A DNA stretch of 64,000 bases. It comes from Silvibacterium dinghuense (GTDB taxonomy: Bacteria; Acidobacteriota; Terriglobia; Terriglobales; Acidobacteriaceae). Both the position numbers and the translations under genes were made by a program. Below the pieces are notes generated by a model, which worked only from the letters and a program-made list of their open reading frames with translations, made no database searches and had not been told where the DNA came from. The stretch spans positions 1 to 64,000 of the forward strand of contig NZ_SDMK01000001.1 of NCBI RefSeq assembly GCF_004123295.1. Direction: 5' to 3'. Positions 33,863 through 43,555 of the stretch are shown here, piece by piece; within the stretch, counting starts at the first letter, position 1, and every line of letters begins with the position of its first letter.

Positions 33863-35284
33863 ATGAAAAAGCAACTTACGTTCGGAGTCATCGTCGGCAG
33901 CCGCGGATTCTTCCCTCACCACCTCGCCAAGGAAGGCCGCGAAGAGATCATCCAGGTTCTTGACGCTAACGGTTACAAATCCATCGTTCTGACGCCTGAG
34001 CAGACCCAGCACGGCGCCGTCCAGACCCCTGAGGACGCACGCCATTGCGCCGAGCTCTTCAAGAAGCATGCCGAAGAGATCGATGGCATCATCGTCACCC
34101 TGCCCAACTTCGGCGAAGAGCGTGCCATCGTTGACGCCATCCGCCTCTCCGGCCTCAAGGTGCCGGTGCTGGTGCAGGCCACGCCCGACCGCACCGACAT
34201 CATGAAGATCGCCAACCGCCGCGACAGCTTCTGCGGCAAAATGTCGGCCTGTAACAACCTCATGCAGTACGGCATTCCGTACTCGCTTACGGCGACGCAC
34301 ACCGTCTCGCCCAGTTCGGAAGCCTTCAAGAAGGACCTGGCATGGTTCTCCGCGGTCTGCCGCGTGGTCGGCGGCTTCAAGAACCTCCGCATCGGCGCTC
34401 TCGGCGCGCGTCCCGCGGCCTTCAACACCGTCCGCTACAGCGAAAAGCAGCTCGAGCGCGCCGGCATCTCGGTCGAAACCCTCGATCTGTCAGAAGTCCT
34501 TGGCCGCATCGACCGCCTGAAGGACACCGACGACGTCACGCAGGCCAAGCTCGCCGCCATCAAGGCCTATGTGCCCACCGGCTCGGTACCTGAAGCCGCA
34601 CTGCTCAAGATGTCCAAGCTCGGCGCCGTCATCGACACCTGGATGAAGGAGACTTACTGCACCATCAGCGCCATACAGTGCTGGACCTCGCTCGAAGAGT
34701 ACTTCGGCGTCGTGCCCTGCACCGTCATGAGCATGATGAGCGAGAACCTTTTCTCCTCGGCCTGCGAAGTCGACGTCGTCGGCGTGCTCAGCATGTACGG
34801 CCTCGCGCTCGCCTCCGAGACCCCGAGCGCCCTGCTCGACTGGAACAACAACTACGGCGATAACCCGAACAAGGCCGTCTGCTTCCACTGCTCCAACCTG
34901 CCCAAGCACTTCTTCACCGAAGTGACGATGGACTATCAGGCCATCATCGCCGGCACCGTGGGCATTGAGAACACCTTCGGCACCTGCGTCGGCCGCGTTA
35001 AGGCCGGTGCCATGTCCTACCTGCGCTTCTCGACCGACGACTACACCGGCAAGATCCGCGGCTACGTCGGCGAAGGCCAGTTCACCAATGATCCGCTCGA
35101 GACCTTCGGCGGCGCGGGCGTCGTTGAGATTCCCAAGATGCAGAAGCTGCTCCGCTACATCTGCGAGCAGGGCTTCGAGCATCATGTCGCGGCCAACTTC
35201 TCGACCGTCGCCAGCCCGGTCTACGAGGCCGCGACCAAATACCTCGGCTGGGATATGCACTACCACGCGCAGCCGGAAGAGTAG
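33863..35284 (+). CDS. FucI/AraA-type sugar isomerase, probable L-arabinose isomerase
   Basis: A 473-residue member of the L-fucose/L-arabinose isomerase family. The N-terminal substrate-entry domain (FGVIVGSRGFFPHHLAKEGR) is followed by a catalytic half where the Mn-binding set of L-fucose isomerase can be matched: E302 (CEVDVVG), D326 (LLDWNNNYG) and H342 (VCFHCSN). It is shorter than E. coli FucI (591) and differs from classical AraA. Between araD and araB there is no other isomerase, so it should turn L-arabinose into L-ribulose by non-orthologous replacement. L-fucose or D-arabinose cannot be excluded. A terminator follows 29 nt after the stop. Confidence 0.85.
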   Translation: MKKQLTFGVIVGSRGFFPHHLAKEGREEIIQVLDANGYKSIVLTPEQTQHGAVQTPEDARHCAELFKKHAEEIDGIIVTLPNFGEERAIVDAIRLSGLKVPVLVQATPDRTDIMKIANRRDSFCGKMSACNNLMQYGIPYSLTATHTVSPSSEAFKKDLAWFSAVCRVVGGFKNLRIGALGARPAAFNTVRYSEKQLERAGISVETLDLSEVLGRIDRLKDTDDVTQAKLAAIKAYVPTGSVPEAALLKMSKLGAVIDTWMKETYCTISAIQCWTSLEEYFGVVPCTVMSMMSENLFSSACEVDVVGVLSMYGLALASETPSALLDWNNNYGDNPNKAVCFHCSNLPKHFFTEVTMDYQAIIAGTVGIENTFGTCVGRVKAGAMSYLRFSTDDYTGKIRGYVGEGQFTNDPLETFGGAGVVEIPKMQKLLRYICEQGFEHHVAANFSTVASPVYEAATKYLGWDMHYHAQPEE

Positions 35285-36929: not shown

Positions 36930-38513
36930 GTGGCCATCGTCGCCGGCGTCGATTTCGGAACCCTCAGCGTTCGCGTTACCCTGCTTGACAGCACCAAAGG
37001 CCGGCTCAGCACCGCCTCCGCAGAATATCCCCTCCACCGCAAGCGTGAAGACCCCGACTACGCCACGCAGTCGCACTTCGACCAGATGGAAGCCCTGGTA
37101 AAGGCCACGCAGAAGGCTATCGCCGAAGCAGGCATCGACGGTTCGCTGATCGAGTCCATCGCCCTCGACACCACCGGCTCCTCCGTCATCTTCGTCGACA
37201 AGCAGGTCCAGCCGCTCGACGACTACTACCTCTGGTGCGATCACCGCGCCAAGCGTGAGGCGCAGGAAATCACCGCGCTCGCCCATGCACAAAAGCTCGA
37301 GGCAATCGACTGGTGCGGCGGCGTCTACTCCCATGAGTGGGGCTTCGCCAAGCTCCTCCACTGGCTGCGCCACAACCCCGATAAGCGCGCACAGTTCTAC
37401 ACCGCCTTCGAGCACTGCGACATGGTCGCCGCCACCCTCGCCGGCATCGACGACGCGACCAGGGTGAAGCGCAGCGTCTGCGCCATGGGCCACAAATGGC
37501 TCTGGAACCCCAAGTGGGGCGGCCTGCCACCGCAGGAGTTCCTCTCCAGGCTCGATCCCCTCTTCGACGGCATCCGCGAGCGCTTTGACGGTGAATACCT
37601 CACCTCGGACAAGGTTGCAGGCCACCTCGCGCCGCACTGGGCCGAGCGCATGGGCCTCAAGGCCGGCATCCCTATCCCTGTCGGCGCGTTTGACGCGCAC
37701 TGGGACGCCATCGGCGCAGGCTGCCGCGAGGGCGACGTGGTCAACGTCGTCGGCACCTCCACCTGCATCATCGCCATGGAGAAGCGCACCGTGCTCGTGC
37801 CTGGCGTCTGCGGCGTGGTGCCCGGCTCCGTGCACCCGCAGTACACCGGCGTCGAGGCGGGACTCTCCGCCACGGGCGACATCTTCGAAGCCATCGCACG
37901 CCGTGCAGGTACTAAGGTCGCCGAACTCTCGAAGGGCCTCGAAGCCTATCGCCCCGGCCAGACCGGACTGCTCCGCCTCAGCTGGGACAACGGCGACCGC
38001 ACCGTGCTCGTCAACTCCGAACTGGGCGGCGTCACCCTCGGCTGGAACCTCATCCACACCGCGCAGGACGAGCTCTTCGCTGCCATCGAAGGCACCGCCT
38101 TTCACACCCGCATCATCCTCGAGCGCATGGCCGAGAACGGCGTGCCCGTCGAGCGCGTCATCAATGCAGGCGGCATCCCGCAGCACAACAAGGTGCTCAA
38201 CCAGATCTACGCCGACGTTTTCAACAAGCCGGTCCTCGTGCCCGCCGGCATCCCCACCAGCCTCGGCTCCGGCATCTTCGCACAGCTGGCCGCCGGCATT
38301 TTCTCCTCGATTGAGGAGGCGCAGAAGGCCATGTGTCTCGACTACATCACCTACACCCCGAACCCCGAAGCCGCGGCCATCTATGACCGCCTTTTCGCCC
38401 TCTACCGGAAGGTCTACTTTGGCCTCGGCACCAAGGACGCCGCACCGGTAGCTCTCGGCGACGTCCTCCCCGAGCTGCGCAAAATCTCCGCCGAAGTCCT
38501 CGGTCACGAGTAA
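36930..38513 (+). CDS. araB: Ribulokinase
   Basis: A 527-residue FGGY-family kinase that phosphorylates L-ribulose to L-ribulose 5-phosphate, the substrate of AraD. The N-terminal ATP/sugar phosphate loop is AGVDFGTLSVRVTLLD, the ribulokinase hallmark WCDHRAKREA is present, and the catalytic Asp lies in VGAFDAHWDAIGAG. The C-terminal FGGY signature region includes NAGGIPQHNKVLNQIYADVF. The GTG start has AAGGAG 7 nt upstream. It sits alone, downstream of an operator-like palindrome, with a hairpin pair after the stop. Confidence 0.94.
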   Translation: MAIVAGVDFGTLSVRVTLLDSTKGRLSTASAEYPLHRKREDPDYATQSHFDQMEALVKATQKAIAEAGIDGSLIESIALDTTGSSVIFVDKQVQPLDDYYLWCDHRAKREAQEITALAHAQKLEAIDWCGGVYSHEWGFAKLLHWLRHNPDKRAQFYTAFEHCDMVAATLAGIDDATRVKRSVCAMGHKWLWNPKWGGLPPQEFLSRLDPLFDGIRERFDGEYLTSDKVAGHLAPHWAERMGLKAGIPIPVGAFDAHWDAIGAGCREGDVVNVVGTSTCIIAMEKRTVLVPGVCGVVPGSVHPQYTGVEAGLSATGDIFEAIARRAGTKVAELSKGLEAYRPGQTGLLRLSWDNGDRTVLVNSELGGVTLGWNLIHTAQDELFAAIEGTAFHTRIILERMAENGVPVERVINAGGIPQHNKVLNQIYADVFNKPVLVPAGIPTSLGSGIFAQLAAGIFSSIEEAQKAMCLDYITYTPNPEAAAIYDRLFALYRKVYFGLGTKDAAPVALGDVLPELRKISAEVLGHE

Positions 38514-38594: not shown

Positions 38595-38693
38595 AGAAAC
38601 GAACCCCATCAAGCATATGCCGGCGGAGGCCGAAGGCGATTCGCCCTGCGCGCAGCAGCGGGTGCATAATGGCTGCCGAAGGAGCTTTTGCCC

Positions 38694-39047
38694 ATGAGCA
38701 GCGTCGCCCTCCTGCAGTCCCTCAAGGAAAACATCCTCGGCCAGGCCGGCGTAAAGACCATCTACGGCGATCCCATCACCGCGCAGGGACACACTGTCAT
38801 CCCCGTCGCCAAGGTCGCTTATGGATACGGAGCCGGCGCAGGCACCGGAGGCGTCGGCAACTCCAGCGCGCAGGGTGAGGGCGGAGGAGGAGGCTGCGGC
38901 GTTCGCGCCATCCCCGTCGGCGTCATCGATGTCAGCGACCACGGCACCACCTTCGTCCCCATCACCAGCCGCAACAAGCTCGCCACCGTCGCCGCCGCGG
39001 GCATCGCCCTCGGCATCGTTCTGGGCTGGAGACGCCGCCGCAAATAG
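38694..39047 (+). CDS. GerW/YtfJ-like protein
   Basis: A 117-residue protein with AAGGAG 9 nt before the ATG (an in-frame TTG at 38688 is too close to it). It matches the YtfJ/GerW pattern: an amphipathic N-terminal helix, GVKTIYGDPITAQGHTVIPV, a glycine-rich hinge (AYGYGAGAGTGGVG and GGGGGCG), then VRAIPVGVIDVSDHGTTFVP. It ends in a single C-terminal membrane helix plus WRRRRK. In Bacillus the family acts in spore germination; Acidobacteriota of this group do not form spores, so a membrane-associated role of unknown kind is likely. Confidence 0.8.
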   Translation: MSSVALLQSLKENILGQAGVKTIYGDPITAQGHTVIPVAKVAYGYGAGAGTGGVGNSSAQGEGGGGGCGVRAIPVGVIDVSDHGTTFVPITSRNKLATVAAAGIALGIVLGWRRRRK

Positions 39048-39224: not shown

Positions 39225-40568
39225 ATGAAATTCCCACTCGCATTAGGCTTAGCTGCAACCGCTACAGCCTTCGCCCAGTCCGCGACCCCACCCACACCAC
39301 CGCCGCATGATTTCGTCATCACCAACGCCACGGTGATGACCGTCACCCACGGCACCATCGAGCACGGCAGCGTCTGGGTCCACGACGGCAAGATCGCCGG
39401 CTACGGCGCCACAGTCAACGCCCCATCTGACGTCGTAAAGATCGACGCCACCGGCAAGTACCTCACCCCCGGCATCGTCGATCCGCACTCGCACTCCGCG
39501 CTCAGCAACGACGTCAATGAGATGACCAGCCCGGTCACTCCGAGCATGATGATGATCGACGCCTTCGACAATCGCGACAAAGCCCTCTACCAGGCCCTCG
39601 CCGGCGGCGTCACCACCGAGTTGCTGCTGCACGGCTCGGCCAATGTAATCGGCGGCCAGGCCGTCGTCATCAAGAACAAGTTCGGCCTCTCGCGCGACCA
39701 GATGCTCTTCCCCGACGCGCCACGCTCCATCAAGTTCGCCAGCGGAGAAAACCCCAAGCGCGTCTATGGAGGCCGCGGCCAGTTGCCTTCCACCCGCATG
39801 GGCAACTTCGAAGTCATGCGCCAGTCCTTCGAGGACGCAAAGGCCTACATGGCCAAATGGGACGAGTACAACGCCAAGGTCGCCAAAGGCGATAAGGACG
39901 TGACTCCGCCTGCGAAGGACCTGAAGCTCGAAGCGCTTGCGGATGTGCTGCGCGGCAAGCTCTACGTGCAGATCCACTGCTACCGCGCCGACGAGTTCCT
40001 CACCGAAGAGGCCATCGCCAAGGAGTACGGCTTCAAGATTCGCGCCTTCCACCACGCGCTTGAGATGTACAAGGTCGCCGACCAGATCGCTCCCACCGGC
40101 ACCGCCATCGCCACCTTTGCCGACTGGTGGGGCTACAAGGACGAGGCCTGGGACGCGATCCCGTGGAATGCCGCCATGAGCGAAAAGGCCGGCATCCGCG
40201 TCGCCCTCAAGAGCGACTCCAACGACCACATCCGCCGCCTCAACCAGGAGGCCGGCAAAATGATCCGCTACGGCGGTGTCAGCGAGGAAGACGCGCTCAA
40301 GATGATCACCCTGAACCCCGCCTGGATCATCGGCGTCGACGACAAGGTCGGCTCCATCGATACCGGCAAGGACGCCGATCTCGTCCTCTGGAACATGGAC
40401 CCGCTCTCCACCTACGCCCGCGCCGAAAAAGTCTACATCGACGGCGATCTCTTCTTCGATGACTCGCTCCCCGGCTTCGGCACCACGCACTTCTCCGGCG
40501 CCATGCATGAGGCCCACGGCTTCGGCGGCGAAGACGGCGCCAATGTCGACGACGAAGGAGGCAACTAA
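39225..40568 (+). CDS. Exported metal-dependent amidohydrolase
   Basis: A 447-residue protein of the amidohydrolase superfamily with a short signal peptide (FPLALGLAATATAFAQSA). The composite beta-sandwich domain (VHDGKIAGYG, IDATGKYLTPGIVD) brackets a TIM barrel with full metal ligands: H88-x-H90 (VDPHSHSA), H251 (VQIHCYRAD), H276/H277 (RAFHHAL) and D331 (LKSDSNDH). Relatives are imidazolonepropionase-like or peptide/cyclic-amide hydrolases without proven substrates. It overlaps the next gene by one base and aligns with that protein along its whole length, so the two come from a duplication and are probably a pair. Confidence 0.88.
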   Translation: MKFPLALGLAATATAFAQSATPPTPPPHDFVITNATVMTVTHGTIEHGSVWVHDGKIAGYGATVNAPSDVVKIDATGKYLTPGIVDPHSHSALSNDVNEMTSPVTPSMMMIDAFDNRDKALYQALAGGVTTELLLHGSANVIGGQAVVIKNKFGLSRDQMLFPDAPRSIKFASGENPKRVYGGRGQLPSTRMGNFEVMRQSFEDAKAYMAKWDEYNAKVAKGDKDVTPPAKDLKLEALADVLRGKLYVQIHCYRADEFLTEEAIAKEYGFKIRAFHHALEMYKVADQIAPTGTAIATFADWWGYKDEAWDAIPWNAAMSEKAGIRVALKSDSNDHIRRLNQEAGKMIRYGGVSEEDALKMITLNPAWIIGVDDKVGSIDTGKDADLVLWNMDPLSTYARAEKVYIDGDLFFDDSLPGFGTTHFSGAMHEAHGFGGEDGANVDDEGGN

Positions 40569-41917
40569 TGCGGAACCGCCTTTCTGTCATCGCCACGGTT
40601 ACAATTTCAACGGCCTTCTCGTTTGGGCATCTTTATGCCCAGTCTGCGCCGGTCGTCGATCTCGCCACACCCGCGCCCGCCGTCGCCATCACTCACGGCA
40701 AATTGCTCACCATCACCCACGGCACCATCGACGACGGAACTATCATCCTCACCGACGGCAAGATCGCAGCCGTAGGACCGTTTGCCTCGGTGCAGATTCC
40801 TTCCAACGCGCAGGTCATCGACGCACGCGGCATGACCGTCTACCCCGGCCTCATTGACGCCGAGACGAATCTCGGCCTTTCCGAGATCGAAGCCGATGAA
40901 GCCTCGAACGATCTTGTCGAAACCAGCGACGAAATCTTCCCCAACATGCACGTCTACGACGCCTTCCACGCCGAGACCGAGCACATCCCCATCACCCGTC
41001 TCAATGGCATCACCAATGCCATCGTCGCGCCCGCCTCAGAAGACTCGATGCCCGGCCAGGACATCTTCATCCAGCTCGCTGGCCGCGACCGCGACCAGAT
41101 GATCCTCGGCAAGGATGTCGCGCTGCCCGTCAATTTTTCCGGCGACCAGCGCCGCCGCGGCAAGTTCCCTTCTACGCGTATGGGCCTCGCCGAACAGCTC
41201 CGCCAGACGCTCATCGACGCGCAGGAATATGCAGCTTCAAAGTCCGATTACGAGGCCAAGCTCGCCAAGTGGGAGAAAGGCGACAAGAAAGACCCCAAGC
41301 CCACCGAGCCCAAGATCGACATGAAGTCCGAAGCGCTGCTTCCCTATCTGCGCGGCGAAAAACCTGTTGTCCTTGGAGCGGACCAGGGTTATGAGGTCGA
41401 GGTCGCCATGCAGCTCGCGCAGCAGTTCCACCTCAAGGTCGTACTCAACCACCTCACGCACACGCAGGATGTGATCGACAAGGTCGCCTCCTACAAGGTG
41501 CCGGTCATTGTCGGGCCGATCTACGACTTCCCCGACGCGAACGAACGCTATGACGCCGTCTACTCGCTGCCCGCCGAGCTCTACAAACGTGGCGTCAAGA
41601 TCGCCTTCTCGTCCTCAGGCGCGGGCGGTGGCCCGAGCGGCGGCTTCGATCGCAACCTGCCCTACGCCGCCGGATACGCCGTAGCCTACGGCCTGCCCTA
41701 CGACGAAGCATTGAAGGCCATCACCATTAACCCCGCAGAGATGTTCGGTGTCGCCGACAAACTCGGCTCGCTCGATGTAGGCAAAACCGCTAACGTCGTC
41801 ATCGCAAACGGAGACCCGCTCGATGTCCGTACCGACGTCAAACAGGTCTATATCGAAGGCCACGCCATCCCCATGGTCTCGCGCCAGACCCGCCTGCGGG
41901 ATGAATACACGAAGTAA
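40568..41917 (+). CDS. Amidohydrolase paralogue lacking metal ligands (probable pseudoenzyme partner)
   Basis: A 449-residue exported protein (signal peptide around VTISTAFSFGHLYAQSA) that aligns end to end with the preceding amidohydrolase; both contain FPSTRMG in the middle and THGTI near the front. The H-x-H motif is replaced by D-A-E-T-N (97-101), the next His by A271/D272, and the final Asp by Ser350; only the fourth region keeps His residues (LNHLTHTQ, 295 and 298). So the binuclear metal site is lost. It is not a decayed gene: the frame is intact, the fold core is conserved and translation is coupled to the active copy. A structural or regulatory subunit is the simplest reading. Confidence 0.85.
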   Translation: MRNRLSVIATVTISTAFSFGHLYAQSAPVVDLATPAPAVAITHGKLLTITHGTIDDGTIILTDGKIAAVGPFASVQIPSNAQVIDARGMTVYPGLIDAETNLGLSEIEADEASNDLVETSDEIFPNMHVYDAFHAETEHIPITRLNGITNAIVAPASEDSMPGQDIFIQLAGRDRDQMILGKDVALPVNFSGDQRRRGKFPSTRMGLAEQLRQTLIDAQEYAASKSDYEAKLAKWEKGDKKDPKPTEPKIDMKSEALLPYLRGEKPVVLGADQGYEVEVAMQLAQQFHLKVVLNHLTHTQDVIDKVASYKVPVIVGPIYDFPDANERYDAVYSLPAELYKRGVKIAFSSSGAGGGPSGGFDRNLPYAAGYAVAYGLPYDEALKAITINPAEMFGVADKLGSLDVGKTANVVIANGDPLDVRTDVKQVYIEGHAIPMVSRQTRLRDEYTK

Positions 41918-41935
41918 GAACGCAATTCACAAGAT

Positions 41936-41968
41936 GAAGCCCGGCAATCGATGCGATCGCCGGGCTTC
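41936..41968. terminator. Terminator of the amidohydrolase pair
   Basis: A 10-bp perfect stem (GAAGCCCGGC 41936-41945, GCCGGGCTTC 41959-41968), whose loop can add a small GATCG pairing, followed by TTCTTGC. It separates the convergent amidohydrolase and sulfatase genes and may work for both. Confidence 0.85.
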
Positions 41969-42002
41969 TTCTTGCAACAATACAATCCTGTAACCAACAC
42001 GG

Positions 42003-43454
42003 TTACGGATAGAGTTTTGCTTCCACGATCTCCGGCTCCGGCTCTCCAGCCGCAACGGCCAGCTTCTTCAACTGCTCACGCAGCTCATCCGCCTTGGCAC
42101 GATACTCCTTGCGTCCGGCCAGATTCACCAGCTCATGCGGATCGGCGCGCTGATCGTACATCTGGTACTCGTGATAGCTCGACGCAGCCGGTTGAGTAGC
42201 ATCGCCGCTCGGATCGGCAACACAATACGTCCAGTCTTTCGTGCGAATCGCGCGCCCTGTCATCGATTCGCTGATCTGAATGAACTGCTCGTTTACCCAG
42301 CCCTGTCTCGCTTCCGGATCGTTGACCAGCGGCAACACGCTGCGCCCCTTCCAGCTCGAAGGTACCGGGACACCAGCAGCTTCCAGCAATGTCGGAGCCA
42401 CATCGATCAGCCCCACGAGCTCGGGAATCTGCTGCGTACCGCGAAAGCCGGGGCCATCGATGATCAGCGGCACACGCAGTGAGCTGTTATGCGTGCTGCG
42501 CTTGTACTCCTGGTTCCGCGTCATGAAGTGGCAGCCGTGATCGCTGAGAAAGACAAAGATCGTATTCTCGGCCAGATGCTCTTCTTCGAGTACCTTGCGG
42601 ATGCGGCCCACCGAGTTATCGATCGCCTCGATGCAACCGTAGTAGTCGGGCAGCTGTGCCTGCCACGTGCCCGGAAAGGCGCGCAGATCCTCAGGCACCG
42701 TTCCATTGAGAAAGCGCTGCGCCGCCCCCTTCGGAGCAATCGGCTGCCCCATATCGTTCTGCTGATGCGGCTCCAGCTGAGAGATAAAGAGCAGAAACGG
42801 CTTGTCCTGCTTCTGACGAAGAAACTTCTCCGCGCGATCGGTCAGAAAATCGACGCGGTATTCATCTTTATATTCAATTGGCTTGTTATCGCGATCCCAG
42901 ATCGTTCCCTCATACGGATGCGAAGTGTTCTCAATCGAATTTGCACCCTCCCACAGATCGAGAAAGCCGCCCCGGTGCTCGGCCTTCACCGCTCCGCGGC
43001 CGCCGCCCTCGGCTTCGGTACCCGGCGCAAGGTGCCACTTGCCGATCAGGTTTGCGCTATAGCCGGCCTTGCGCAGCTCCGTCGCAAGCGTGGGCAGAGT
43101 CTCATCGAGCCCCTTGCCGTTGCGCCATACTCCTGTCTCTGTCGCATAGCGGCTGGTAAACAGCACCGACCGTGACGGCGCGCAGACCGGCTGATTTGTA
43201 ACCGTGTGAGTAAAGTTTTTGCCGCGCGCAGCCAGCGCATCGATATTCGGTGTGTGCGTAGAGCCGTTATGACCATTCGCACCTACAAAATCCCAGCGAA
43301 ACTGGTCCGACAGATAGAGGATGATATTCGGTTTCTGCCGCGGTGCAGTGCTTGTGGCCGGTACCTGGGCCATGGCGGTGGAGGCTGGAACTGCGGCCGC
43401 AAACGCCGCAGCCACGGAAGACTTCAGGAAGGCTCTGCGGCCCTCATCATTCAT
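42003..43454 (-). CDS. Tat-exported type I sulfatase
   Basis: A 483-residue sulfatase. The signature C-A-P-S-R (NQPVCAPSRSVLF) contains the Cys that anaerobic or oxygen-dependent maturases turn to formylglycine, followed by the G-x-x-x-G-like YATETGVW region; the metal-binding front is NIILYLSDQFRWDF. The N-terminus RRAFLKSS plus an alanine-rich stretch is a Tat signal. ATG at 43454 is chosen because GGGAGAG lies 6 nt upstream. Targets are probably sulfated polysaccharides, but arylsulfatases and choline-sulfatase-like proteins share the fold. No maturase gene is in the window. Confidence 0.88.
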   Translation of the reverse strand: MNDEGRRAFLKSSVAAAFAAAVPASTAMAQVPATSTAPRQKPNIILYLSDQFRWDFVGANGHNGSTHTPNIDALAARGKNFTHTVTNQPVCAPSRSVLFTSRYATETGVWRNGKGLDETLPTLATELRKAGYSANLIGKWHLAPGTEAEGGGRGAVKAEHRGGFLDLWEGANSIENTSHPYEGTIWDRDNKPIEYKDEYRVDFLTDRAEKFLRQKQDKPFLLFISQLEPHQQNDMGQPIAPKGAAQRFLNGTVPEDLRAFPGTWQAQLPDYYGCIEAIDNSVGRIRKVLEEEHLAENTIFVFLSDHGCHFMTRNQEYKRSTHNSSLRVPLIIDGPGFRGTQQIPELVGLIDVAPTLLEAAGVPVPSSWKGRSVLPLVNDPEARQGWVNEQFIQISESMTGRAIRTKDWTYCVADPSGDATQPAASSYHEYQMYDQRADPHELVNLAGRKEYRAKADELREQLKKLAVAAGEPEPEIVEAKLYP

Positions 43455-43555
43455 GCGCACTCTCCCTCACTTCTATTCTCCATGATCTGCCCCGCATATG
43501 CAGTCGCGAGTACGGACATAAGTTTGCAACGGCAAGAAGCGCAAACAAAAATGCG

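Follow-up and report, generated by a model that had tools for sequence, protein, structure and literature searches.

Paired genes for a putatively secreted amidohydrolase and a paralogue without the predicted metal site: a probable enzyme-pseudoenzyme system in Acidobacteriota and Bacteroidota

Why would a bacterium keep, directly behind the gene for an apparently intact amidohydrolase, a second gene for a related protein that seems to have lost its metal site? The question is raised by two consecutive genes of Silvibacterium dinghuense, found on the forward strand of the 64,000-nucleotide stretch of DNA analysed here (positions 1 to 64,000 of contig NZ_SDMK01000001.1; hereafter the window). 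The first gene, A (39225..40568, + strand), encodes an exported-looking protein of 447 aa, and the second, B (40568..41917, + strand), an exported-looking paralogue of 449 aa. As described in the initial annotation, the genes overlap by one base: the TAA stop codon of A (40566-40568) shares its last letter with the ATG start codon of B (40568), and the resulting TAATG (40566..40570, + strand) was read directly from the sequence. Such an overlap suggests translational coupling of A and B. The two proteins can also be aligned over their whole length, with 35% identity, and both N-termini, judged by eye, resemble signal peptides, in line with the export proposed for them earlier; the proteins would accordingly be exported, probably into the periplasm. 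Just 3' of B there is a strong G+C-rich hairpin (41930..41974, + strand; -31.6 kcal/mol, z -7.5), which, judged from its fold alone, may mark the end of the A-B transcript. The hairpin was absent from the output of a simple terminator scan, and the same simple scan found no sigma-70-like promoter.

A sulfatase gene (42003-43460, - strand; PF00884), the product of which has a signal-like N-terminus, is convergent with the pair. The gene at 38688-39047 encodes a small protein that contains a Gly-rich stretch, has a hydrophobic segment at its C-terminus and presumably resembles GerW/YtfJ. The product of 33863-35284, close to a ribulokinase gene (36930-38513), matches the C-terminal domain of L-fucose isomerase, and scores 84.8 of 700 bits against the sulfoquinovose isomerase model, which is far under the cut-off.

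Membership of both proteins in the amidohydrolase family is clear. With a cut-off of 25 bits, A matches PF01979 with 66.9 bits (E 2.4e-18) and B with 55.2 bits (E 9.2e-15). The nearest solved protein by sequence is for both of them the Thermotoga maritima amidohydrolase 3ooq in the PDB (4.3e-69 for A, 1.8e-39 for B), the aligned sequence of which has the site residues of A; no paper naming this structure was found in the open-access literature. Single-chain AlphaFold models are weak (mean pLDDT 64 for A and 62 for B) and were therefore used for the fold only, and in a Foldseek search the weak model of B had 3ooq as its best match (E 3.2e-24). Named enzymes of defined substrate, such as hutI, nagA and Xaa-Pro dipeptidase, were rejected as identities, since the best 25 of 62 NCBIfam equivalog matches for A and the best 25 of 45 for B all fell far under their cut-offs (hutI scored 58.1 against A, with a cut-off of 298). 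The solved relatives of A act on many kinds of substrates and hence do not narrow down the substrate of A.

The metal site of the amidohydrolase superfamily is composed of an HxH motif, two more histidines and an aspartate. In A, we take H88, H90, H251, H277 and D331 to be the metal-holding residues expected from the family. E175, located in a GENPKR loop, is as invariant as these five and was counted as the sixth site residue, and all six are predicted to take part in metal binding. In B of the window five of the six have changed (H88 to E99, H90 to N101, E175 to a gap, H251 to G270 and D331 to S350), and the only one retained is H277, which corresponds to H295. In addition, B has kept a conserved glutamate outside this set, E99 of A being equivalent to E118 of B. 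The initial annotation was thus right about the loss of the site in B with one histidine left, and about H88, H90, H251 and D331 of A; the invariant histidine is, however, H277 rather than H276, and its list of residues was incomplete, as both E175 and the glutamate shared by A and B had been missed.

The pairing was also looked for in other genomes. Already in the first search for relatives (61 genomes) strong matches to B came with a second match alongside (for instance in G006, G005, G022, G036, G033, G031, G026, G015, G009, G021 and G012). A profile of B, built of 17 rows, matched, at 1e-25, 139 of the 297 Acidobacteriota sampled, each of them two or more times, although in most genomes only five candidates were scored. 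In the phylum of a Saprospiraceae record 140 of 247 genomes matched at 1e-60, some of these matches belonging to a second, more distant family. When a profile of A was used at 1e-100, it was found in 123 of the 297 Acidobacteriota, each of which also belongs to the 139 matched by the profile of B. Concerning the 16 genomes with a B-profile match only, A is cut short in two (G146 and G157) and seven are accounted for by the second family (G105, G162, G215, G226, G259, G263 and G294); the examination covered these nine, the other seven being G090, G201, G249, G295, G303, G325 and G327.

For a closer comparison, 79 regions from Acidobacteriota, 40 from the second group and one from G354 were picked by hand, not at random, from the listed matches. 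Together with 22 earlier sequences, including the window, they make up 142 loci, and leaving out six second-family loci (L028, L081, L133, L142, L151 and L152) results in 136 canonical loci from Acidobacteriota and Bacteroidota; the canonical A and B of L081 are still counted among the domains, and L004 and L005 are near-identical and therefore not independent. A and B occur together at 132 of the 136 loci, and B occurs alone at four. As all these loci were chosen by a match to B, they do not by themselves prove that A needs B, and it is the comparison of the genomes matched by the two profiles (123 within 139) that bears on this matter. In the four genomes with B alone (G310, G398, G414 and G460) A is located elsewhere; three of these genomes have it within an open reading frame of 1018-1047 aa, and in G310 the separate A adjoins C, a third paralogue described below. 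Two weak cases, G244 and G273, each have a C-A fusion followed by B, and in G273 the contig ends within B. The conserved pairing that the initial annotation proposed to look for is borne out, and its caveat that orthologues of B might rarely be kept does not apply: B is kept with A across phyla. Chance is excluded as the origin of the pattern by its recurrence in two phyla and by the matches of both A and B to 3ooq. Among 2030 flanking open reading frames from up to 124 loci, with flanks of differing length, no conserved neighbour naming a substrate was found; the largest cluster, presumably of protein kinases, is present at 12 loci, and what we take to be M20-like and S9-like peptidases at 8 and 6 loci, respectively.

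The difference between A and B in the window is also found across the domains compared. All six site residues are present in 131 of 133 A domains, that is, in all 131 untruncated ones, which also have the full motif of HxH, two histidines and aspartate; the remaining two are truncated, with gaps instead of substitutions at the site. In contrast, none of 137 B domains has a complete site, so that the losses reported for the window are repeated in both phyla. No site residue is kept in 79 B domains, one in 44, two in 10, three in three and four in one, i.e., at most two in 133 of 137, when B and C are read in the alignment columns of A and gaps are scored as not kept, loops possibly misplacing some columns. 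The B proteins of L088, L094, L105 and L146, which keep three or four of the six positions, might still be active. The presence of such B proteins in other families suggests that the site may have been lost in a stepwise manner.

Pairing is not the whole picture. At 102 of the 136 canonical loci the cluster includes a second dead copy, C, usually upstream of the two others (C-A-B). The orders found are CAB (94), ABC (8), AB (29), B (4) and BA (1), the single BA being a consequence of sorting by the start of the open reading frame, since A precedes B in that genome (G236). Out of 103 C domains, two of which come from L110, 68 keep no site residue, 32 keep one and three keep two; a scan of 16 C proteins against PF01979 gave a match for every one of them (E no higher than 0.01). 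Many C proteins have approximately 80-110 extra residues C-terminal to the barrel, and it is these residues that form the linker in such C-A fusions as L095, L107 and L141. In the genome of the window (G000) the profile of C finds only B and A themselves, and C is present in a genome of the same order (G040) and in another one of the same class (G059), from which we infer that C was lost in the lineage of the window. Hence, the two-component system suggested in the initial annotation is supported as far as the enzyme and its dead twin are concerned but is incomplete, as most loci examined have one live-looking and two dead paralogues.

The three proteins are also found naturally fused. Among 129 loci (seven of the 136 were left out, namely L144, L146 and L149, the last two with a truncated A, and the four with B alone) A and B are fused at 19 and C and A at 38, with all three joined into a single C-A-B protein at two of the latter (L119 and L126; 1419 and 1386 aa). 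The junctions vary from direct contact to linkers of approximately 114 residues. On one midpoint-rooted tree of A, a minimum of five gains or losses is required for each kind of fusion, compared to averages of approximately 18 (A-B) and 33 (C-A) with shuffled labels, and the fusions are thus clustered by descent, yet have arisen or split repeatedly. In a tree built from every other domain, A and C each form a clade, and B is split, with 58 of its 70 members grouped and 12 placed elsewhere; because of this, and as the rooting depends on the outgroup and some nodes are weak, we claim neither a single loss of the site nor several.

A comparable arrangement is seen in the second family of adjacent amidohydrolases, known from 11 loci (L028, L133, L142, L151, L152 and L204-L209), which were aligned separately from the canonical set. 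Each set has one member with HxH, two histidines and aspartate, and at least one (one or two dead) without a complete site, and the position of E175 in the live-looking member is threonine in 8 of 11 and another residue or a gap in the rest. In addition, L081 (G066:C4:9571-21839) has five consecutive open reading frames with six amidohydrolase domains, live-looking and dead ones mixed.

Taken together, we consider it probable that A and B form a secreted hetero-oligomeric amidohydrolase in which A is catalytic and B, as well as C where it occurs, is maintained as a non-catalytic partner. A and B would be subunits of one secreted, probably periplasmic, hetero-oligomer; A would contain the only metal centre and perform the hydrolysis, and B, having the amidohydrolase fold without the metal site, would assemble, stabilise or gate A. 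C would be a further dead subunit with a part in assembly, stability or gating, and the genome of the window would have retained the A-B form of the set. The physical association of A and B and the role of B are what we infer from the genes and their distribution. A dead paralogue is kept beside a live one at 132 of 136 loci, as in paralogue sets of enzymes and pseudoenzymes, and the idea of a maintained non-catalytic partner, put forward in the initial annotation, is favoured by purifying selection on B together with the natural A-B, C-A and C-A-B fusions. Consecutive steps of a pathway can be fused as well, however, so linkage and fusion indicate functional association and are no proof of binding. 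We lean, if only slightly, towards a wider proposal: C-A-B would be an ancient secreted enzyme made up of three paralogous barrels, of which one is live and two are dead, maintained in at least two phyla and fused in several ways, and some lineages, such as that of the window, would manage with a single live chain and a single dead one.

The selection acting on B is seen in the rates of substitution. For unsaturated pairs dN/dS is 0.07-0.18 in B and 0.05-0.16 in A, and a comparison of the window with the Silvibacterium orthologue gives 0.083 (B) and 0.103 (A), both of them rough values as dS is high. Over its full length, B is subject to purifying selection. This does not extend to three positions of the old site: the entropy of the B columns at A positions 88, 90 and 251 lies in the 98th-100th percentile, as variable as anywhere in B, with position 331 in the 77th and position 277 (mostly Gly) in the 28th percentile. 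Much of the old site thus drifts while the fold is held, and the variability at 88, 90 and 251 makes it unlikely that B binds metal there through a replacement set of ligands. The position of E99 of A, on the other hand, falls into the 5th percentile in B, with the glutamate kept in 132 of 137.

B also has residues of its own, typical of it and not of A (n = 137), namely R144 (99%), E106 (97%), P155 (98%) and P322 (99%), of which R144 and P155 are common in C, too (71% and 76%). They are possible interface positions. Alternatively, B and C might catalyse a different reaction next to A in the same pathway, from an active site newly formed in another part of the barrel; the conserved set of B (E106, D115, E118, R144, P155 and P322), which A shares to an equal degree at E118 only, would fit this, as would fusions that join consecutive enzymes. 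Nevertheless, we regard this as unlikely, given the drift of the three old site positions, the few candidate catalytic groups in the conserved set of B and the presence of a glutamate at the E118 position in only approximately 17% of the dead copy C. It is also conceivable, although quite improbable, that the role of B and C is to bind substrate or to provide attachment to a surface, capturing the substrate or anchoring A without touching its active site. Their predicted nature as exported, metal-free barrels and the C-terminal extension of many C proteins would suit this role, but a pocket binding a common ligand should be conserved, and B is most variable at just those three positions. That B is a decaying duplicate retained through linkage only, as the lost site and the modest identity to A might imply, is very hard to believe and contradicted by dN/dS of about 0.1, by its distribution with A across phyla, by its own conserved residues and by its repeated fusion to A.

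Since domain searches assign A, B and C to the amidohydrolases without distinction, dead copies can be counted as enzymes. If the wider proposal is true, the C-A-B and A-B sets would offer a natural series in which the contribution of pseudoenzyme subunits can be compared. A real complex would mean that a widespread bacterial system is secreted in which an active copy of a fold goes with one or two inactive ones; as its natural versions comprise separate chains as well as partial and full fusions, the role of a pseudoenzyme subunit could be tested directly in it.

No description of the A-B(-C) set was found in the open-access literature, which was the scope of the search. Amidohydrolase-fold pseudoenzymes that form oligomers are nevertheless represented by the animal, cytosolic CRMP/DPYSL proteins, dead relatives of dihydropyrimidinase; we know of no case in which these are encoded in an operon of a live and a dead copy, unlike A-B. 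Dihydroorotase also belongs to the amidohydrolase superfamily, and the fold of AdoMetDC is different from the amidohydrolase fold. Enzyme-pseudoenzyme complexes as such are of a known kind. ATCase of Pseudomonas aeruginosa needs an inactive dihydroorotase homologue, pDHO, for its activity, and pDHO raises its stability (PMC7053772). The likeness is that an inactive amidohydrolase-type homologue supports a partner enzyme, and the difference is that ATCase is no paralogue of the dead chain, whereas A, B and C are paralogous, secreted-looking and include up to two dead copies. In Trypanosoma brucei the dead paralogue prozyme heterodimerises with the live AdoMetDC and activates it (PMC5201418). 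Here a catalytically dead paralogue is paired with a live enzyme, as we propose for A and B, but the trypanosome system is eukaryotic and consists of two chains only, whereas A, B and C are bacterial and naturally fused in several combinations.
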